Part shown: positions 2,920-10,758 of the stretch, in pieces
How the letters are laid out: each line of letters opens with the position of its first letter
How positions within the stretch are numbered: position 1 is the first letter of the stretch
Virus record (IMG/VR): IMGVR_UViG_3300017746_001999
Span: 1-50,471 of that record
Length of the DNA stretch: 50,471 nt
Direction: 5' to 3' (one strand)
Source of the DNA: a virus
Notes under the pieces: generated by a model
Databases searched by the model: none
Seen by the model: the letters and a program-made list of their open reading frames with translations, nothing else
Told to the model about the DNA's origin: nothing
Program-made: the position numbers and the translations under genes

Positions 2920-4956
2920 TTATTTTGATGTTGCTCTAAAGATCCCATCCCAATCCTTTGGGAGATCTTGTGTCTTCATATACTTACAACGTTCAATCCA
3001 GATGTCATAATAGTCATCCATATGACCTTCAAACTTGCCTTTCAGATCTTTACAAATCTCAATAGCCGAATCAAAATGTTGTGTTCCATAGAAGTTATGC
3101 ATGGTGTTGTGATTGAGCATATCCGCACCATGTTTGTTACGGTCAATATCTAATACCGTATATATCTCTAAACCCACACTCTTACCTTTAACTGCAAGAT
3201 CGTCTAGTTTGAGATAGAAGAAATCATCTTCTGTTAGGTTGTAGGTATGGGGTCCTACAATTAAAAGAACCCCATACCCTTTGCATGCGCTTTCTAGTCT
3301 TGCGGCTGTACTGACACTGTCTCCGAGGATATCATAGGAGTGTCTGGATGTAGAACCCATCTCTCCAATATAACCAAGGCCAGTATTAATGCCGGCACCC
3401 ATACCCACTTGCGGTTTACCTTGTTCCATAAGTTTTTCATTAAATTTCTCCACTGCTTTAAGCATGTTTAGTCCTGTCTGAACTGCCGTTTTCGGATGGC
3501 TAGGATCATTAACAGGAGCGTTGTGTATGTGCATAGTTGCGTCACCAATGTATTTGATGATCATTCCACTTGCATCTAACACAGGTTGTGTAATTGCATC
3601 CATATAATTGTTCATCACTGTTGTCAAACCTTTAACATCATTTCCGAACGATTCACCCAATGGGGTGAAACCTCTAAGATCAGAGAATACAATACTTACT
3701 TCTTTCTTCTGACCTTCTTTAATTAGTTGTGGGTTCTTCTGTAGGATCTCCACAACTTCTGGTGAAGCATATCCACCAAATTGTTTCTTAATAGCTTGTT
3801 TCTCTAAGAATTCTCTAACAAACTTAATACCATATACTTGTAGTGCTATGATTACAAAGACAATGGTAGGGGCTGTTACATCTATTAACATCTTTTCTGT
3901 AGCATACATGTGCATTGAATATGGTATAACTGATCCAATAAGACCTACTGTTGCTATCAGCCCTACTATCATCCATTTGCTTAATGCGATTAATAGAAGT
4001 CCACCAACCACAAGACCAAGTAGTTCTGCCATAGAAGCCCAATCAGGACGTTGAATGTTAGTTCCGTTAAACATTGTTCCTAGAACTGCCGCTTGTACTT
4101 CACCAGAATATACAGATCCTATGGCTGTAGGCGCTGGGTTGGTTATACCTGCGGCTGTCACGTCCACGATAACAACTGCACCACCAAAGTCTTTAGGAAG
4201 ATCTGTTAAGGATACTCTCTTACTCTTTTGACTCCAATCAATCCATACACGACCTTCACTGTCTGTAGGGATAATACCAAACTGTGGTATTCTCATCTTC
4301 TCTACACCATTGGGTTGCATTTTGATTTGAAAACTAATGTCGCCTGCTAATACACGCAACGTCTCTAGTGCCAAACTAGGATAAAGAGTACCATCCACCA
4401 TAGCAACAGTTGGCATACGTCTAACCACACCATCTATCTCTGGTTCTGTACTGACAATTCCAGCCCCAACAGAGTTATTCTCTAATACAGGGACGTTAGC
4501 GATTATACCATTGTATGGTAAAATTGTATCCAAATACTCTGGATTGATAATAGCCGCACCTGGATTGATAGGTTCGTTCTTAGTCTTATCGCTAGGACGT
4601 GAGGATAAAACGACAGGATAGTCATATAGGATATTTCCCATATAGGCATCACCACCTAGTCGATCTTCTTCGGGCATCATGATTGTCCAGACCACAAGAC
4701 CTGCACCCGAATCATATAAACCTTTTATTATATCACCATAAACGTTTCTTGGAAAGGGGTATTGTCCATACTTGTTCAGAGTTTCTTCATCGATCTCTGC
4801 AATATAGATGTTATTCTCAACAGGATCTTGATTGACAATTAACTGGTCAAAGTAATTGAGTTTAATACTTTGAATAAAGTTAGATGGATATACGAATGTA
4901 TATACCAAGACTGCTAGAGTTAAAATTGCCCACCAAGGACTCAATAGTTTCTTCAT
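2920..4956 (-). CDS. CHASE2-domain class III adenylate cyclase
   Basis: A 678-residue membrane protein predicted to make cAMP. A transmembrane segment at about 8-24 is followed by a periplasmic CHASE2 sensor (about 25-300). Three more membrane segments (about 312-375) lead to a cytoplasmic class III cyclase domain (about 415-600). Visible catalytic residues are metal aspartates D426 (FSDLRGFT) and D472 (KYIGDATM), adenine-selecting K468 and D542, and transition-state R553. The usual Asn of the VNxAAR motif is Ser549 (VSTAAR), which may lower activity. The tail, ending in PKDWDGI, matches the C-terminus typical of CHASE2 cyclases. It is the last gene of the curli-type operon, its start overlapping the curlin stop. 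FecR-domain and CHASE2-cyclase genes are often neighbours in bacteria, which supports import of the pair as a unit. Confidence 0.92.
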   Translation of the reverse strand: MKKLLSPWWAILTLAVLVYTFVYPSNFIQSIKLNYFDQLIVNQDPVENNIYIAEIDEETLNKYGQYPFPRNVYGDIIKGLYDSGAGLVVWTIMMPEEDRLGGDAYMGNILYDYPVVLSSRPSDKTKNEPINPGAAIINPEYLDTILPYNGIIANVPVLENNSVGAGIVSTEPEIDGVVRRMPTVAMVDGTLYPSLALETLRVLAGDISFQIKMQPNGVEKMRIPQFGIIPTDSEGRVWIDWSQKSKRVSLTDLPKDFGGAVVIVDVTAAGITNPAPTAIGSVYSGEVQAAVLGTMFNGTNIQRPDWASMAELLGLVVGGLLLIALSKWMIVGLIATVGLIGSVIPYSMHMYATEKMLIDVTAPTIVFVIIALQVYGIKFVREFLEKQAIKKQFGGYASPEVVEILQKNPQLIKEGQKKEVSIVFSDLRGFTPLGESFGNDVKGLTTVMNNYMDAITQPVLDASGMIIKYIGDATMHIHNAPVNDPSHPKTAVQTGLNMLKAVEKFNEKLMEQGKPQVGMGAGINTGLGYIGEMGSTSRHSYDILGDSVSTAARLESACKGYGVLLIVGPHTYNLTEDDFFYLKLDDLAVKGKSVGLEIYTVLDIDRNKHGADMLNHNTMHNFYGTQHFDSAIEICKDLKGKFEGHMDDYYDIWIERCKYMKTQDLPKDWDGIFRATSK

Positions 4957-5375
4957 TAGTTACCGTTTTGGTTTATGTTAAGTGTACAACCGTAATCAGC
5001 CCAACAACTTCCATTAACAGTATATGACATACTATTAGTTCCATACTGTGTTGAATTGATATCTGCCATACCCTGACTTCCTGTTGTGATATTTATAGTC
5101 ACCGAATGATTACCAGATCCTGTCTGAGATATGTCAAAGTCATGTGGGGTTCCATCCATATCAAGATATGCGTATTTATACGATCCTGTCTGTGTCAATG
5201 CCACATCATTACCATCACCATCAACGATGATTTCTGCCTCATGGTTCTCTCCATCTTGAGTTACACTTAAAATAAACTCATCACCTATCTGAGTAATATC
5301 TAAGTCATTGGCAAAACTAGCGTTGCTGATAAATGTCAATAGAGTTGTTAGTGCTATCGCCCAACCTGTAGTCAT
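4956..5375 (-). CDS. Curlin-repeat secreted protein (CsgA/CsgB-like)
   Basis: A 139-residue precursor with a signal peptide (about 1-22, ending SFA). The mature part carries curlin-type repeats such as LDITQIGD, LSVTQDGEN, VALTQTGS, FDISQTGSGNH and the terminal LNINQNGN. These follow the Ixx[QT]xGxxN pattern that stacks into amyloid beta-helices in CsgA/CsgB. A Cys pair near the end (CWADYGC) could form a disulphide. The start at 5375 has GGGAG nearby and lies inside the FecR gene, so almost the whole signal peptide is encoded in a 59-base overlap. Probably exported by the neighbouring CsgG/CsgF as a fibre subunit or nucleator. Subunit-versus-nucleator role cannot be decided from sequence. 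Confidence 0.82.
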   Translation of the reverse strand: MTTGWAIALTTLLTFISNASFANDLDITQIGDEFILSVTQDGENHEAEIIVDGDGNDVALTQTGSYKYAYLDMDGTPHDFDISQTGSGNHSVTINITTGSQGMADINSTQYGTNSMSYTVNGSCWADYGCTLNINQNGN

Positions 5376-6453
5376 ATAACTCCCAATCGTTTTGTTGAAG
5401 ATCTATGGTATAACCATATGCCTGATTTAGTCTTAATTGTACGAAGTTCTCTCCGCTATCATTTCTTCTAGAGAACACCCAATTAGGTGTTTCGTTTATT
5501 AGTGATATTCCTGTTAATGGATCGTATCCATATATGTTTGATTCTTGTTTCAATAGTAGTGCATTCTGATCTGCAAGCTCATCACTAAACAATCTCTTTA
5601 ATGCTTCATTCAACTGATCTAGCATGTCATACAATAAGTCTTGAAGGTAATCTATATCCATATCAAGTTCAGTAAGCCAGATGCCTTCTATAGAATCAAC
5701 CAAGGCATCATATTCTAATCCATCAAATTGTAAGAAGTCTAGTCCTAAAAAGTCTGCCCTCTCTCTTTGCTCATCCAATAACCTTGTCTGTTCTTCATAG
5801 TATGGGTTCTTCTTTCTTAGAATTAGAAGTTGATTGATCATACTTTCATCAATGTCCAACAAAAGTGGTGGTGTTGGTTTACTCGTACTAGTAGAAGCTA
5901 TAGTAACTTGGAAAGCTTTATTAAGTATAACAAACCCAGCGTCAGTCTCTACTGTTATCTCTCCTGTATAACAAGATCCAGAAATGTCACAAGACGGAAG
6001 TAGTGTAATCATACTACCACCTGTTTCATCTATAACCATTGCAAAGTCTGTACCACGAACAGCAATCGTTGCTGATGGTGTGCGTATTCTAACACGTTGC
6101 CTACTGTTCTTAGCAATCTGTCCACTGGCATATCGTACAGTGCCAAGACTTGCTTTAAGACCAAGTGATCCTTTTCCAGTATTAGGATCATAGACAAAGT
6201 CATCAATGATTAGTCGAGAATGTTCTGTTATATCAACTCGTGTATCATCTACAAAATCTATTCTCATTTTAGACTTGGCAGTTATTGCCGTGTCCATCAA
6301 TTCTATAAGAGTACCCTTACTTGTATCAATCGCATCATTACCACGCTCAATAGCCGCACTACCAGATTTTCCTGATAGCTGTACAATCTCTCCTATGTTT
6401 GCATAAGCAGAGGTTGTTATCAAAACAAATAACAAAGCAAGAGACTTAAGCAT
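5317..6453 (-). CDS. FecR-domain exported protein
   Basis: A 378-residue protein with a signal peptide (about 1-18, ending SAYA). The FecR domain (about 20-175) shows the characteristic RTPSATIAVRGTDF segment. A following helical, acidic region (about 195-300) is rich in Leu, Asp and Glu and could form a coiled coil. The C-terminal part is beta-rich. FecR domains here are probably periplasmic or surface modules rather than sigma regulators, since no sigma factor partner is present. It lies between the two curlin genes and shares one base with the upstream curlin. FecR plus CHASE2-cyclase pairs occur in bacterial genomes, so this protein may deliver a surface signal to the cyclase. That link is inference. 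Confidence 0.85.
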   Translation of the reverse strand: MLKSLALLFVLITTSAYANIGEIVQLSGKSGSAAIERGNDAIDTSKGTLIELMDTAITAKSKMRIDFVDDTRVDITEHSRLIIDDFVYDPNTGKGSLGLKASLGTVRYASGQIAKNSRQRVRIRTPSATIAVRGTDFAMVIDETGGSMITLLPSCDISGSCYTGEITVETDAGFVILNKAFQVTIASTSTSKPTPPLLLDIDESMINQLLILRKKNPYYEEQTRLLDEQRERADFLGLDFLQFDGLEYDALVDSIEGIWLTELDMDIDYLQDLLYDMLDQLNEALKRLFSDELADQNALLLKQESNIYGYDPLTGISLINETPNWVFSRRNDSGENFVQLRLNQAYGYTIDLQQNDWELYDYRLGDSTNNSIDIYQQR

Positions 6454-7169
6454 TAGTCAGATTGCGTAATATTGATTTGGTGATCATCACCATTAGTATG
6501 AAGGTCTACAATGTTGTCGTATACTCCGCTTTGGTTTACCACAACTGCATGATCACGACCTTTCATGTCTAGTATTATTGTGTGTCCATTTATATCACCA
6601 TCGCCAGCTACATCAATATCTAACGTACTGTTAGTTGATGCTAAACTTGAGTTCTCGTCAATAGTTACAGTTACGATTGCGCTTTTGCCGTTAATGTCTG
6701 TTGTTATCACGTTTCCGCTATCATCAACTGTAAAGTTTACTGTTGCACCTTCAGCATCTGCCGATTGTCCTATGTTAATAGTATAGTCTTGGTTATCGCC
6801 ATCGGCATCAATGTTAAGTGTAACGGTATCACAATCTCCACCTGTGCTACTAGAGCATAGCAAGTCTATTTCGTTTCCACTACCAGTTATATCCCAAGTA
6901 CCTGTGTAAGTAGAACCTAAGATTTGTGCAGTGATTGCGTTTGTGTTACCTGTCTGAGTTATACTGAATGTCATGTCATCAGACGCACCAGAGGATGAAC
7001 CAAGAACTACGTCTTGGCTACTAGTACCAATAGTGTTGTTTTGACCATCTTGTACGATGTCTAAGTCAAGTGTATCACCTACTTGTTTTATATAGATATC
7101 ATTAGCGTATAGTGTAAGGGGTGCAAGTAATATTGCACTCATCATAATGAGTTTTCTAAAATGTCTCAT
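6453..7169 (-). CDS. Curlin-repeat secreted protein (CsgA-like), larger paralogue
   Basis: A 238-residue precursor with a signal peptide (about 1-22, ending LYA), preceded by GGAAAG seven bases from the ATG. The mature protein is Asp/Asn/Gly/Thr-rich. It contains repeated strand-turn units such as IYIKQVGD, LDIVQDGQNN, FSITQTGNTN, WDITGSGNE, YTINIGQ, VVVNQSGVYDN and the terminal INITQSD. This is the pattern of curlin amyloid subunits. A Cys pair lies near residues 104 and 113. It directly follows csgG (10 bases), so it is the likely main fibre subunit exported through the CsgG pore. It might instead coat progeny or the host surface; the sequence does not say. Confidence 0.82.
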   Translation of the reverse strand: MRHFRKLIMMSAILLAPLTLYANDIYIKQVGDTLDLDIVQDGQNNTIGTSSQDVVLGSSSGASDDMTFSITQTGNTNAITAQILGSTYTGTWDITGSGNEIDLLCSSSTGGDCDTVTLNIDADGDNQDYTINIGQSADAEGATVNFTVDDSGNVITTDINGKSAIVTVTIDENSSLASTNSTLDIDVAGDGDINGHTIILDMKGRDHAVVVNQSGVYDNIVDLHTNGDDHQINITQSD

Positions 7170-7179
7170 TTTCTTTCCT

Positions 7180-7974
7180 TTATCCGCCTGTTTTTGGGTC
7201 TACCAAAAACGACCAGAATTGCTTCTTTTCTCCTTCATTAATCAATTCAATCACACCAGCCTCTATTGCTGATCTTACTGCATAATTAACTGGCTCGTTC
7301 ACACTAGAGCCAGATTCTGCTTCTACAAGTTTCGTACCCATATCAAAGAATCTGAATACGTCTGCACCACTTTGGTGACTTGCTATGTTCTTTTCTGTAG
7401 CTACACTTAGTAATATTTTACCAGTGCTCACACTTACTAATCTCATAACAATTGTTACAGTATCAACTCTATACTGTTGCTGAACCCCAAGACCAAGATA
7501 CCTTGCTCCCAATCCACCTGTAGCTACACTTGAGTCATAACCAACTATACCACCCTCAAGTATTAATCCAGCGAACACCATAGGCTTGAGTGGTGTGGGT
7601 CCGTTTGCCAAATCCTTTTCATACACTTCACGTGTATTTCTAACTAACTGTCTTTCTCTGACCAAGTTGTCAAGACCAACTCTCTCAACTGTTTCAAACC
7701 AAGTTCCAGATCCAACATCTTGTAATGCCTTGATCACCCAAACTTCTGCACCTTGGGTAACAGCACTACTTAAACTCGAATTCCCAGGCTTCCTTTGTCC
7801 AGTTTTATCCGCAAAAGAATAAACAGCAATGGTCATTTTCTTTCCATCTAACTGTTCATAATCAGAAATCGAATTAGGAGAACTTTGCACCTTGGGAGTT
7901 TCACCAAGAGGATATTGGCTAGGGTCTACACACCCCATAAGAAGTGAAACAATCGTAATCAAAACAAAACGCAT
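7180..7974 (-). CDS. csgG: CsgG-like curli secretion lipoprotein
   Basis: A 264-residue protein homologous to CsgG, the outer-membrane nonamer that exports curlins. A lipoprotein signal ends in LLMGC15, so Cys15 is the predicted lipidated residue. The body shows CsgG-family features: IAVYSFADKTGQRK after the N-terminal linker, WFETVERVGLDNLVRERQ, a LILEGGIVGYDS strand, and YRVDTVTIVMRLVSVSTGKIL. Its length is close to E. coli CsgG. The start overlaps the csgF stop by one base. No csgE is visible, although one could lie elsewhere in the genome. Function as a curlin pore is inferred from family and neighbours. Confidence 0.93.
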   Translation of the reverse strand: MRFVLITIVSLLMGCVDPSQYPLGETPKVQSSPNSISDYEQLDGKKMTIAVYSFADKTGQRKPGNSSLSSAVTQGAEVWVIKALQDVGSGTWFETVERVGLDNLVRERQLVRNTREVYEKDLANGPTPLKPMVFAGLILEGGIVGYDSSVATGGLGARYLGLGVQQQYRVDTVTIVMRLVSVSTGKILLSVATEKNIASHQSGADVFRFFDMGTKLVEAESGSSVNEPVNYAVRSAIEAGVIELINEGEKKQFWSFLVDPKTGG

Positions 7975-8438
7975 CAGAAGTTAAACTCCCCTGATCCCGG
8001 AATAGTAATCGTTGTAGTACCATCATCATTTGTTATGACTAGGGTAATAGATCCTGTAGTTGAATCTTTAGACCATTCAATCGTACTTCCCTCAATCTCC
8101 GTAGATCCGCTAGTGGCACAATCATCACTTGTACACTCTGCAAACATAGAATCTACCATCTGTTTACTCAGTGTTGCGTATATTCTACTCTCAAGGTTCT
8201 TAATAAATTTGTTTAATGTAGTATTCTCTAACTCACGCTCAATGCGTTTCGCTTCAGCTTCCATTTCATCTCTTCGATCTTTATTCCTATTGAACACTAA
8301 TTGTTCAGTGGATAATACATGAGAAGAGTATCCTTGCCCATTAAAGGCAGGGTTCTTAAATGTAAACTGTAATTCTGCGTTACTTTGTGTTGGGAGTAAC
8401 ACCAAAGCTATTAGGCTTAGGGTCTTCTTTGATATCAT
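7974..8438 (-). CDS. csgF: CsgF-like curli assembly factor
   Basis: A 154-residue precursor. The signal peptide is about 1-21 (ending SNA), and the mature start LQFTFKNPAFNGQGY matches the CsgF FxFxNPxFxG segment that inserts into the CsgG pore. The rest has a charged helix (about 50-90) and a beta-rich tail. I chose the Met at 8438 because it gives a normal signal peptide and follows GAAGAAG. A longer frame exists but lacks a ribosome-binding site. The gene overlaps the preceding membrane-protein gene by 59 bases and ends one base into csgG. Together with csgG this is strong evidence of a curli secretion unit. Confidence 0.88.
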   Translation of the reverse strand: MISKKTLSLIALVLLPTQSNAELQFTFKNPAFNGQGYSSHVLSTEQLVFNRNKDRRDEMEAEAKRIERELENTTLNKFIKNLESRIYATLSKQMVDSMFAECTSDDCATSGSTEIEGSTIEWSKDSTTGSITLVITNDDGTTTITIPGSGEFNF

Positions 8439-8727
8439 CTTCTTCGCCACTCGTATTAAATTTCTCATTCTTGGTCTGGTTTTGTGCAACCTCTTTGTCC
8501 ATACCTCTATGTTCTAGGACAATAGAAAGCTTTGAGTTGAGTCTGATCATATCATTATCAAGCATACGTACTCTGTCTACCAACTTAATTAGCGTAACCA
8601 TAGTTTCACCAATAACTGGATCTATGGTCTCCGTAACCCACTTCCAAATAAAGTAGATAAAGTAGCCCATTCCAACTGCGGCAACAATAGGGAAGCCGTA
8701 GTCTTTTATGGCTTGGGCTATATCCAT
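8380..8727 (-). CDS. Small membrane protein with coiled coil, holin-like
   Basis: A 115-residue protein. It has a short N-terminal amphipathic stretch (MDIAQAIKDYG), one membrane segment (about 12-32) and a heptad-like region (about 40-75: LIKLVDRVRMLDNDMIRLNSKL). The tail is hydrophilic and acidic. The plan matches the 92-residue protein at 9094-9372 (membrane segment, then coiled coil with MxNDxxxxxxxL), so the two are probably paralogues. Single-pass coiled-coil membrane proteins of this size include holin-like and regulatory phage proteins. A role in membrane permeabilisation is possible, but an inner-membrane partner for the curli apparatus is equally compatible. Confidence 0.7.
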   Translation of the reverse strand: MDIAQAIKDYGFPIVAAVGMGYFIYFIWKWVTETIDPVIGETMVTLIKLVDRVRMLDNDMIRLNSKLSIVLEHRGMDKEVAQNQTKNEKFNTSGEEDDIKEDPKPNSFGVTPNTK

Positions 8728-8958
8728 CTATCCTCTAATCGCTCCATCAACTGTTGACACTTTTACAAGCCATCCATTTTCGTCAGCACGGAATACGTCT
8801 CCAGGCTTATAAAGATGATTATCTTTAGTAGTACCATCTCTTTGCTTGCCCATCACTTCTCCGTCCCAATCTCCTTCAATTCTAAAGTCTGATGCTCTTT
8901 GATGTATTCTAAAATCAAGCCACATCATCGACTTCTCCGATTCTTTCAAAATATCCAT
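8728..8958 (-). CDS. Hypothetical protein (76 aa)
   Basis: A 76-residue soluble protein. It contains a beta-rich C-terminal half (YKPGDVFRADENGWLVKVSTVDG) that could be an SH3-like barrel. No motif identifies a function. Two starts are plausible. The ATG at 8958 follows AGGATATA. The ATG at 8928 follows GGAGAAGTCG and would overlap the preceding gene by only 14 bases. It ends exactly next to the downstream membrane-protein gene, so it is translated in the same operon. Confidence 0.6.
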   Translation of the reverse strand: MDILKESEKSMMWLDFRIHQRASDFRIEGDWDGEVMGKQRDGTTKDNHLYKPGDVFRADENGWLVKVSTVDGAIRG

Positions 8959-9094
8959 TATATCCTATCCTATATGTTTCACCAATTTTTAGTCTAACAT
9001 CGTCAATCACAAAGAACTTATCTTCAGTATCTTTGTTATTGAGAATGCGAAAACCATTCTCGAACTTCATTAGAAGTAAATCTTTCCAAATCAT
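8915..9094 (-). CDS. Hypothetical small protein (59 aa)
   Basis: A 59-residue frame, MIWKDLLLMKFENGFRILNN..., ending at TGA 8917-8915. The ATG at 9094 overlaps the stop of the holin-like gene as TAATG, and GGAGAG lies six bases upstream. This makes it a credible coupled gene despite its size. The sequence is beta-prone (FFVIDDVRLKIGETYRIGYNGYFERIG) and resembles the layout of its downstream neighbour. The two may be related small barrel proteins. Function unknown. Confidence 0.6.
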   Translation of the reverse strand: MIWKDLLLMKFENGFRILNNKDTEDKFFVIDDVRLKIGETYRIGYNGYFERIGEVDDVA

Positions 9095-9372
9095 TAGTCT
9101 CTCCTTGCATCATCTTTACCTTCGTTAGCCGCTATACGGTCTATGTTAGGTTTAACATTCAAAGCATAACTAAGTAAGGCATCGATCTTTACTAGATCAT
9201 TGTTCATTGTTTGAACCCTATTATCTAAGGATCCTATTATACTCTTAAGCGTTGTTACTGATTCTGTAACACTCGCTAGGATAAATTTAAGTGATATAAA
9301 GACAAAGATCCCAGCAGCGATTGCCCCTGCAATTGGAGTTCCCACATCACCTATCAAATTGAATATATCCAT
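9094..9372 (-). CDS. Small membrane protein with coiled coil, holin-like paralogue
   Basis: A 92-residue protein with an N-terminal membrane segment (about 12-33, GTPIAGAIAAGIFVFISLKFI). A heptad region (about 35-75) includes LDNRVQTMNNDLVKIDALL, and the tail is charged. It shares this plan with the 115-residue protein at 8380-8727. It is the first gene of the curli-type operon and sits immediately after a TATAAATA late promoter. Only five bases separate the box from the ATG, so the message may be leaderless. Holin-like is a hypothesis from size and topology; no lysis partner is adjacent. Confidence 0.7.
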   Translation of the reverse strand: MDIFNLIGDVGTPIAGAIAAGIFVFISLKFILASVTESVTTLKSIIGSLDNRVQTMNNDLVKIDALLSYALNVKPNIDRIAANEGKDDARRD

Positions 9373-9377
9373 ACCCC

Positions 9378-9385
9378 TATTTATA
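9378..9385 (-). promoter_or_regulatory. T4-type late promoter of the curli-type operon
   Basis: TATAAATA on the minus strand, directly after the terminator of the porin-like gene. The ATG of the first operon gene begins at 9372. If transcription starts about six bases past the box, as expected for this promoter class, the message would start at or next to the ATG. Confidence 0.7.
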
Positions 9386-9417
9386 CAAAAAGAAAGGGGA
9401 ACCCGAAGATTCCCCTT
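9386..9417 (-). terminator. Rho-independent terminator after the porin-like gene
   Basis: On the minus strand an 8-bp stem (AAGGGGAA / TTCCCCTT, 9417-9410 and 9401-9394) with a short loop is followed by TTTCTTTTTG. It ends the tmRNA and porin transcript and insulates the late promoter at 9385-9378. Confidence 0.85.
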
Positions 9418-9471: not shown

Positions 9472-10239
9472 TTAAAATGAGAAAGATAGGTTGACTGAAG
9501 GTGAAAGTACTTCACTGTTCAAGTCATAATTAAGTTTACTTTCGATAGATGCGGCATCATTAAGACCAAGTAGGTAAGATGCACCTGCATTCTGTGTCAT
9601 GTCATTTTGGTCACCATTCAAGTAACCTGTAACACCTAGAAGTGTTGTTGAACCTTCGTATGCCCACACATCATTTGCATATGTCATTACTGTGTCAACA
9701 TGTTGGTCACGTACTTCAATTCCTAAGCCTGCACCAACTGCGATTTCTTTAGTATCGATGTTATAATCGGCAGAAGTTTGTGCTGTAACCCCACCTAATG
9801 TAAGTTCATATGCACCTTGTACACTTGCAACGTCTGTTACATCTGTGCCAATGTCTGTGAAAGAAAGACCTACACTTGCACCTGAGATAGCGATTTGTGC
9901 TGAAGTTCCCATTGATGGGTTAGCTAGTGGGCTGTTTGCCGCAGAAGCTTCACCTTCCACAAAAAGGTTTCCTTGCTTACCAAAAGATACGCTTGTTGCG
10001 CCAAGTGCTGTACCTACATGCCAGTCACCAATGCTTAGTGAGTTATCTGATCCAGCAACTACTTCAACTGAACCAAAGGCATCGCCTACGGCAGTTACAT
10101 CTAGTGCTACTGATTTAGCGGCAGTGTATTTTCCCGCCGTGTTTTCTGTGATGTCAATATCAACATCTACTGCAAGATCTGCCGCATTTACGACACTTGC
10201 TGTAGCAACCATTGCTAGAGAAGAGATTAAAGTTTTCAT
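9472..10239 (-). CDS. Outer-membrane beta-barrel (porin-like) protein
   Basis: A 255-residue precursor with a signal peptide (about 1-19, ending VNA). The mature chain is made of alternating amphipathic strands and Gly/Asn/Asp turns. It ends in aromatic Phe (SVNLSFSF), the C-terminal signature recognised by the BAM machinery. Size suggests a barrel of about 10-12 strands; no plug or OmpA domain is visible. The gene follows the tmRNA coding piece and has AGGACG before its ATG, so it is probably co-transcribed with the tmRNA from the early promoter at 10730-10758. Possible roles are altering host permeability or blocking superinfection by replacing a receptor. Both are inference. Confidence 0.7.
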   Translation of the reverse strand: MKTLISSLAMVATASVVNAADLAVDVDIDITENTAGKYTAAKSVALDVTAVGDAFGSVEVVAGSDNSLSIGDWHVGTALGATSVSFGKQGNLFVEGEASAANSPLANPSMGTSAQIAISGASVGLSFTDIGTDVTDVASVQGAYELTLGGVTAQTSADYNIDTKEIAVGAGLGIEVRDQHVDTVMTYANDVWAYEGSTTLLGVTGYLNGDQNDMTQNAGASYLLGLNDAASIESKLNYDLNSEVLSPSVNLSFSF

Positions 10240-10264
10240 TCTTATTCGTCCTTGTTAATTGTTA

Positions 10265-10431
10265 ATACGACTTTTCTGTTGCTAGGTAAGTCGCCAACCC
10301 CCTGTGATTATGCCGCTAGGCGTAATCCAGATGGTGCAAAGTTATTGTTTGCATTTAGTGATTTGACCAATCTCGCAGTCACCCGGTAAACTCCACTTCA
10401 CTACAACACCTGTCGATCCTAGTTCTGCCCC
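10265..10431 (-). ncRNA. ssrA: tmRNA coding piece (permuted two-piece tmRNA)
   Basis: The minus strand begins GGGGCAG at 10431 and continues AACTAGGATCGACAGG, the tmRNA D-loop region. The seven 5' bases pair with CTGCTCC of the acceptor piece (10664-10670), including a G3-U wobble that is the alanine identity element. The tag frame starts at GCA (10352) and ends at TAA (10310-10308), giving ANNNFAPSGLRLAA with the conserved LAA degradation end. A 6-bp hairpin (CGACTT/AAGTCG, 10293-10268) closes the piece; the exact 3' end is approximate. Order acceptor-then-coding is the circularly permuted arrangement of alphaproteobacterial tmRNA. It rescues stalled ribosomes and tags nascent proteins for proteolysis. 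Confidence 0.93.
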
Positions 10432-10439
10432 ATCATAAA

Positions 10440-10640
10440 TTATCGTTTTCTTTTTAAATAGTTTTGATATTCTTCGTAACTATCTTCACCCTTTTGCCAC
10501 TGTTTATAATCACCTTTGGTCTGGGCATCTATTTGCATTTTTTGAACACTAACACCTTTGGTGCGCTTCATAGGTTTACCTTTTTTGATTTCACCACCGT
10601 TTTTTAAAAAGGTGTCAATCAAATCTTTATAATCACTCAT
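10440..10640 (-). CDS. Basic 66-residue protein encoded inside the tmRNA intervening segment
   Basis: A 66-residue basic protein, MSDYKDLIDTFLKNGG..., with Lys-rich stretches and a C-terminal KRKR. It starts at 10640, preceded by CGGAG nine bases upstream. A longer frame to 10715 would be read through the tmRNA acceptor piece and is rejected. The stop ends eight bases before the first G of the tmRNA coding piece, and the start is 20 bases after the acceptor CCA. The ORF therefore fills the segment normally cut out of permuted tmRNA precursors. No homing-endonuclease motif is visible. Function unknown; RNA binding is a guess from its charge. Confidence 0.65.
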   Translation of the reverse strand: MSDYKDLIDTFLKNGGEIKKGKPMKRTKGVSVQKMQIDAQTKGDYKQWQKGEDSYEEYQNYLKRKR

Positions 10641-10660
10641 AATATAACTCCGATAATTTA

Positions 10661-10723
10661 TGGTGGAGCAGTTGGGTACTGCCCCCAAGTCCAGTATGCG
10701 TTCACGTTGCTTCAACGTTTACA
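10661..10723 (-). ncRNA. ssrA: tmRNA acceptor piece (permuted two-piece tmRNA)
   Basis: The 3' end is CTGCTCC-ACCA (10670-10661), with CCA encoded. Just before it lies a perfect T arm: TTGGG, loop GGCAGTA, CCCAA. The GGCAGTA loop in place of the usual TTCRANY is, as I recall, a feature of alphaproteobacterial tmRNA acceptor pieces. The 5' limit is set by the expected start of transcription about seven bases below the -10 box. Mature tmRNA would be this piece base-paired to the coding piece at 10431-10265. Confidence 0.9.
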
Positions 10724-10729
10724 GTTTAT

Positions 10730-10758
10730 ATAGTAACATAAGGAGCTAAAAGTGTAAA
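10730..10758 (-). promoter_or_regulatory. Sigma70-like promoter of the tmRNA
   Basis: Minus strand: -35 TTTACA (10758-10753), 17-base spacer, -10 TACTAT (10735-10730). The predicted start is near 10723, just upstream of the acceptor piece. Confidence 0.7.

Follow-up and report, generated by a model that had tools for sequence, protein, structure and literature searches.

A conserved curli-type secretion module with a FecR-domain protein and a CHASE2 nucleotide cyclase in a marine T4-like phage

What use would a phage have for a curli-type secretion pore, curlin-like subunits, a FecR-domain protein and a membrane-bound nucleotide cyclase, encoded side by side? The question is raised by virus record IMGVR_UViG_3300017746_001999, a stretch of 50,471 bases (the window, analysed at its full length), in which an earlier note had described ten minus-strand open reading frames (ORFs), overlapping or almost so, behind one late promoter. 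All were found where that note had placed them. It had also presumed the full set with subunits, FecR-domain protein and cyclase to be novel, which it is not: the set is on record in PMC9599517 (2022) and in phages Melnitz and HTVC008M. Here, we show that the module is real, conserved and of this published type, in a further phage lineage, and describe two points that are new here and worth following, a FecR-curlin hybrid protein and an apparent exchange of the sensor domain. With somewhat more confidence than doubt, we read it as a module that would make a surface fibre late in infection and sense the envelope, a function proposed from sequence.

Gene order and conservation

From its head, the unit comprises two small paralogues (CC-A and CC-B) with two tiny ORFs between them, CsgF, CsgG, a curlin-like protein (curlin 1), the FecR-domain protein, a curlin (curlin 2) and the CHASE2 cyclase; all are on the minus strand, and no frame is broken in the ORF list. 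The families first assigned to CsgG, CsgF, FecR and the cyclase were borne out by Pfam (E values of 3e-50, 2e-13 and 9e-10 for the first three; CHASE2 6e-32 and Guanylate_cyc 3e-18 for the cyclase). The phage is T4-like, with helicase, UvsX, DNA polymerase, major head protein and tail sheath matching phage families. Among the 15 matches listed of 2,835, its replicative helicase was 65.5% identical to that of Phage C48C1 and 56 to 59% identical to those of cyanophages, Melnitz and a marine single-cell virus.

The same gene order was sought in other marine phages and found. Together with Melnitz, HTVC008M and the window, 38 loci from a CsgG scan of IMG/VR gave 41 sequences (loci numbered with L), in all of which the core CsgF-CsgG-curlin-FecR-curlin is uninterrupted wherever the contig extends. 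Counts of loci are not independent, since L002, L003 and L039 nearly duplicate the window, as do L004 and L005 each other. In 25 sequences the cyclase follows curlin 2 on the same strand, eight others stop short of its position, and it was not found in eight loci holding the rest of the module (L029 to L035 and L038). Four of these (L029, L030, L034 and L038) have more than 6.5 kb of sequence beyond the module and four (L031 to L033 and L035) just 1.7 to 2.8 kb; since the L022 cyclase stands more than 1 kb behind curlin 2, a cyclase could be missed in the latter. A podovirus origin of the cyclase-less group was considered and rejected. The group looks T4-like, because the four members tested (L029, L033, L034 and L038) lack a DNA_pol_A match and helicase- and UvsX-like ORFs (by eye) lie close by.

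Ratios of nonsynonymous to synonymous substitution (dN/dS; from stop-to-stop frames, hence approximate) against L004 and L006 were 0.09 to 0.27 for CC-A, CC-B, CsgF, CsgG, FecR and the cyclase, less strict for curlin 2 (0.15 to 0.37; 0.44 against L008), and saturated for curlin 1 and the 59-amino-acid (aa) ORF. Broken genes in related phages, which the earlier note would have held against its own proposal, include the cyclase of L047, which lies in two ORFs. With gene order conserved and dN/dS well below 1, a chance arrangement of these ORFs is excluded.

Proposed secretion pore and curlins

CsgG (7180..7974), the predicted outer-membrane lipoprotein channel, has a lipobox before Cys15, and a loose lipobox pattern matches 31 of the 41 CsgG ORFs; its profile matches solved CsgG over its length (1e-67, profile positions 3 to 264). 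CsgF occupies 7974..8438 (listed ORF to 8489), its start most likely being 8438 and not the TTG at 8489 (by eye). It has a signal peptide, also by eye, and the mature N-terminus (FxN/SPxF) is kept in 32 of 33 proteins by eye, the remaining one being truncated; a stricter scripted pattern matched 10 of 33. Single-sequence searching of the PDB returned no solved CsgF.

Of the two proposed curlins, curlin 2 (4956..5375; a short allele of 139 aa) is secure, with curlin repeats (Curlin_rpt, 2e-11) and a match to the solved curlin-repeat protein 8c50 (6e-9). Curlin 1 (6453..7169; signal peptide by eye) is called a curlin by homology to the annotated curlins of HTVC008M and Melnitz and by its predicted structure, a beta-solenoid (pLDDT 79; best Z 17.4, the SufB/SufD beta-helix). 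A Foldseek search with this model gave nothing under 0.001, and a second fold search gave mostly beta-helices. A curlin-like ORF follows CsgG in each locus that extends there. Curlin 2 frames vary between 125 and 467 aa, contig ends having cut some of them, and that of the window is among the shortest; full-length curlin 1 is about 230 to 320 aa.

FecR-domain protein

The FecR-domain protein (5317..6453) begins with a single hydrophobic stretch of signal-peptide type, followed directly by the FecR domain, with no further span; Pfam gave no domain match beyond FecR that could be an anti-sigma part. A FecIR-type regulator has a cytoplasmic anti-sigma part and one membrane span before its FecR domain. 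The protein thus appears unlike such a regulator.

Its C-terminus resembles that of a curlin. The motif [ILV]x[ILV]xQ lies at most 3 residues from the end in 35 of 35 FecR proteins, and strict matches were found in 30 of 42 first curlins and 27 of 29 second curlins (assigned by best match, so that some second curlins are counted as first), 1 of 24 cyclases, no other module gene, and 3 of 755 other ORFs of at least 100 aa (stop-to-stop frames, many of them not genes). Gln354 and Gln376, 22 residues apart, are invariant in a 15-row alignment, a spacing that resembles curlin repeats. Although the curlin 2 gene overlaps the FecR end in the window, overlap does not explain the motif, since L024 and L034 have no overlap and retain it. 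With no anti-sigma part and a curlin-like end, the protein may be linked to the fibre.

CHASE2 cyclase

The cyclase (2920..4956) carries its CHASE2 domain between membrane segments (Pfam and membrane-span scan), followed by a class III catalytic domain. The two halves have conflicting histories. Window and Melnitz cyclases share 32% identity over CHASE2 and membrane part and 75% over the catalytic part, Melnitz and HTVC008M 53% and 37%, and L020 and L022 32% and 90%, with a jump in identity near residue 376 (15 of 25 cyclases compared, near-duplicates set aside). Trees built for each part, with 15 phage proteins and 26 of 30 bacterial ones (score >380), gave conflicting phage clades, each with support of 1.0: the CHASE2 tree places L018, L019, L022 and Melnitz together with HTVC008M, the catalytic-domain tree together with the window. 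Domain exchange between phages would be the simplest reading.

At one catalytic position the 25 cyclases fall into 16 S-type (the window included), 8 N-type and 1 cut off at that site. The S-type keeps Asp426 and Asp472 (metal), Lys468 and Asp542 (substrate) and Arg553 (catalytic), with serine (Ser549) where the N-type, and all 25 bacterial relatives with a readable motif among 30 examined, have the catalytic asparagine. This asparagine presumably stabilises the transition state; with serine in its place, the S-type could be slow or altered.

In 115 alphaproteobacterial genomes, a FecR domain lay within 5 kb of 40 of 119 CHASE2 places (about 1 expected); the 41 pairs include 29 on the same strand, and their CHASE2 proteins are not necessarily all cyclases. 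None of 29 CsgG places had FecR or CHASE2 within 20 kb, within the limits set by contig ends; most of these places were weak, only three exceeding 160 bits. FecR and CHASE2 thus look like a bacterial pair that occurs without curli, which the phages hold in one unit with curli.

Promoter and terminator-like hairpin

The T4-type late promoter TATAAATA (9378..9385) begins 13 bases before the first ATG of the unit, so its transcript may be nearly leaderless. It comes after a terminator-like hairpin (9394..9417; 10 pairs, T-rich tail), one of 6 such sites in the window against 4.2 in shuffles. In the window TATAAATA occurs 11 times, always on the coding strand, 4.4 occurrences being expected over both strands together, and 0 of 100 shuffles reach 11. 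Counting copies at most 60 bases from the first Met of CC-A, TATAAATA stands 13 to 38 bases upstream in 23 of 35 sequences, including the cyclase-less ones reaching there (for L012 and L013 an internal Met was taken as the start). None was seen at the unit head in L020 to L022, L023 to L027 or HTVC008M, and the Melnitz copy would run into the start codon. Promoter position and upstream hairpin support one late unit.

Two more copies lie within curlin 2. Both are present in L002 and L003, one in L006 and L007 and none in L004 and L005; not being kept in all close relatives, they are probably a coding coincidence. The group L029 to L038 keeps a second TATAAATA after about 3.2 kb of the core, between FecR and curlin 2, which may serve as another late promoter.

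Small paralogues, neighbours and binned contigs

CC-A (9094..9372, 92 aa) and its paralogue CC-B (8380..8727, 115 aa) both match phrog_18771. Both had been described as membrane coiled-coil proteins; CC-A exceeds a simple membrane-span threshold and CC-B falls below it, and the coiled coil was seen by eye. Pfam found no kinase domain in either, and HisKA was found in none of nine phage records (two complete genomes; seven may be fragments). The pair heads the unit, with the exception of L020, L021 and L022, which retain both genes at another place, past the cyclase and on the opposite strand. Among 50,697 phage records it occurs in six, all carrying curli: four Melnitz strains and HTVC008M twice (two phage kinds). 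Distant CsgG-like genes occur in five Brevundimonas phages (about 27%) and in one Salmonella record of 1,499 bases, none of which has the CC pair.

The tiny ORFs (8915..9094, 59 aa; 8728..8958, 76 aa) were found in only part of the relatives. ORFs matching them sit behind the cyclase in Melnitz, and in L020 and L021 one sits beside the relocated CC pair; they may travel with the module.

Directly before the unit lies a gene for an exported 255-aa protein, porin-like by eye and ending in Phe (9472-10239, minus strand), present in 8 of the 41 sequences. Just upstream of it is a permuted transfer-messenger RNA (tmRNA) of alphaproteobacterial type (10217-10756, minus strand); Melnitz also has a tmRNA near its curli unit.

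A bacterial donor was sought through a CsgG scan and rejected. Its 13 loci comprise seven with the phage CC pair, L045 with phage-like scores, four that look bacterial and L055, which is ambiguous; no close bacterial donor was found among them. Phage-like curli contigs (L044 to L049, L051 and L056) had been binned into metagenome-assembled genomes (MAGs) labelled Rhodobacteraceae, Pirellulales, Flavobacteriaceae and Pelagibacter, and such contigs can mislead searches for bacterial curli.

Proposed function and alternatives

In the reading we favour, CsgG and its surface partner CsgF would form a type VIII secretion pore, through which two Sec-exported curlin-type proteins would pass and assemble at the surface of the infected cell into an amyloid-like fibre. 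The FecR-domain protein would bind the fibre or its assembly site through its curlin-like end, from the periplasm or the surface, and the CHASE2 cyclase, in the inner membrane, would monitor the envelope or the assembly of the fibre and make a cyclic nucleotide, most likely cyclic AMP (cAMP). The two small paralogues would be dedicated assembly or anchoring factors. The likely benefit would be an altered surface of the infected cell, by which siblings could be captured or rival phages excluded.

Several points weigh against this account. Secretion, fibre, FecR placement, the role of the small pair, signal and benefit are all predictions from the genes. Gluing of cells, one of the effects first suggested, agrees with the 'sibling capture' idea published in PMC7029224 but sits badly with PMC9004378, which reports no clumping of a Melnitz culture. 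CsgE was found in none of the nine records and is also absent from published phage modules, so what is claimed is a CsgE-less variant of type VIII secretion. Curlin 1 matches no curlin model (E up to 1), no second curlin is shown by the MAG-binned phage contigs L051 and L056, and the cyclase of another, L047, is split. In a 13-row realignment of the FecR proteins Gln376 is invariant and Gln354 is not; 0 of 3 bacterial FecR proteins beside CHASE2 have a curlin-like end; and the FecR model is poor (pLDDT 52), with weak best fold matches, to anti-sigma and PupR signalling domains, that reflect the FecR domain. Co-evolution of FecR and CHASE2 found no clear support: their identities correlate at 0.61 to 0.63, barely over the 0.59 of CsgF and CHASE2 (18 loci, near-duplicates set aside), which speaks against a tight interface. 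The original suggestion of cAMP output is made less certain by the serine at the asparagine position and the lack of a receptor. Cyclic nucleotide-binding domains were found in none of the nine phage records and in 2 of 60 genomes of the SAR11 family (the family of the MAG titled Pelagibacter), one of the two being a bin that holds a phage contig. Class III cyclases also occur in 2 of these 60 genomes, only on binned phage contigs (coordinates match L051 and L056). If the window phage infects a SAR11-type host, cAMP would mostly be without a classical receptor.

The cyclase might instead be a separate signalling gene riding in the unit, its nucleotide acting on host regulators and unrelated to the fibre. 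We consider this unlikely, though it accounts for the eight loci that hold the rest of the module and no detected cyclase, for bacterial FecR-CHASE2 pairs far from CsgG, and for the unclear covariation of the two in phages; it is opposed by the fixed place of the cyclase, when present, behind curlin 2 on the same strand, and by the rarity of receptors in the SAR11 family. More doubtful is a CsgG/CsgF pore that times lysis in the manner of a pinholin or secretin, with the fibre genes secondary, as proposed for Melnitz in PMC9004378 from AlphaFold models and synteny. The lack of a CsgE gate in all nine records speaks for it. PMC9004378 argues from the absence of csgA and csgB, yet in Melnitz-3 record MZ577098.1 (L040) two curlin-repeat proteins are annotated, alongside a FecR-domain protein and a cyclase. 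The curlin-like ORF that follows CsgG, the retained CsgF N-terminus, and the CsgG lipobox with its full-length outer-membrane match, which is the wrong membrane for a holin, likewise oppose a lysis pore. The ungated channel would also suit uptake of nutrients or cofactors by the infected cell, an idea raised in PMC7029224 and PMC9599517, but this leaves the exported curlins and the curlin-ended FecR protein unexplained, and we give it little credence. Decay into functionless cargo is scarcely credible: it could cite the serine of S-type cyclases, the short curlin 2 and the split L047 cyclase, but that serine is itself conserved, the window frames are unbroken, dN/dS is 0.09 to 0.27 for the non-saturated core genes, and gene order persists between lineages whose CsgG proteins are about 50% identical.

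The surface-fibre module with a sensor could be taken further, and here we only speculate, with small expectation of being right. The FecR-curlin hybrid might be the periplasmic end of the fibre, reporting assembly to an exchangeable CHASE2 sensor, and the nucleotide might act through an unrecognised receptor or leave by the ungated CsgG as a message to neighbouring cells or phages, in hosts mostly without a known receptor.

If infected cells were indeed coated with amyloid, marine virology would come to see them as sticky or shielded in dilute water. The details added here ease testing of the published module, in which a protein labelled an iron regulator may belong to the fibre and the kinase label of small proteins may be wrong. 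Further pointers are the replacement of the sensor beside a retained enzyme, and a signal for which SAR11 has no obvious receiver.

Comparison with known systems

The closest system is the type VIII secretion module of pelagiphages. PMC9599517 describes podoviruses with one or two 'HK' (histidine kinase) genes, CsgF, CsgG, CsgA/B and FecR, often with a second CsgA/B and an adenylate cyclase, the same module in myoviruses, and metatranscriptome reads for pelagiphage curli genes. Genes and order are those of the window, with no CsgE in either; the window differs in being another T4-like lineage and in HisKA, not found in the nine records. If the CC pair corresponds to the 'HK' genes, as its position and gene number suggest, that label is doubtful. 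The main text of PMC9599517 mentions no CRP, CHASE, chimer or signal peptide, and MW574966, a deposited genome named there, has no curli annotation over 1-59769 and is not among the CsgG matches. Our literature search (titles and starts of abstracts of the best 10 to 20 papers per search, with supplements and most subscription papers outside it) found nothing on the curlin-like FecR end, cyclase domain exchange or the missing receptor, and no paper on phage cyclases of this kind.

CsgF and CsgG were reported in pelagimyophages by PMC7029224 and in Melnitz by PMC9004378. Melnitz (infecting OM43) and HTVC008M (SAR11) share one layout, the complete CC-CC-CsgF-CsgG-curlin-FecR-curlin-cyclase, as in the window. 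Melnitz shares the S-type catalytic domain of the window (75%), and HTVC008M has an N-type (37%); both differ from the window in CsgG (about 50% identity) and CHASE2 (32% for Melnitz, 31% for HTVC008M). Bacterial curli operons (csgBAC/csgDEFG) have CsgG, CsgF and curlin subunits in common with the window, which adds FecR and the CHASE2 cyclase and in which CsgE was not found; profiles of the phage FecR, cyclase and CC proteins had no match in bacterial loci L050, L052, L053 and L054, most of which are short on one side.

FecR-domain proteins beside CHASE2 sensors are also known from Campylobacterota cyclases (PMC9239204) and from Burkholderia BiofilmReg (PMC5192318), a kinase operon whose disruption stopped biofilm, and in Sinorhizobium an outer-membrane barrel takes part in signalling by CHASE2 cyclases (PMC13001267). 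The available text of these three papers mentions no curli, whereas in the window the FecR-CHASE2 pair lies within a curli unit and its FecR protein ends like a curlin.

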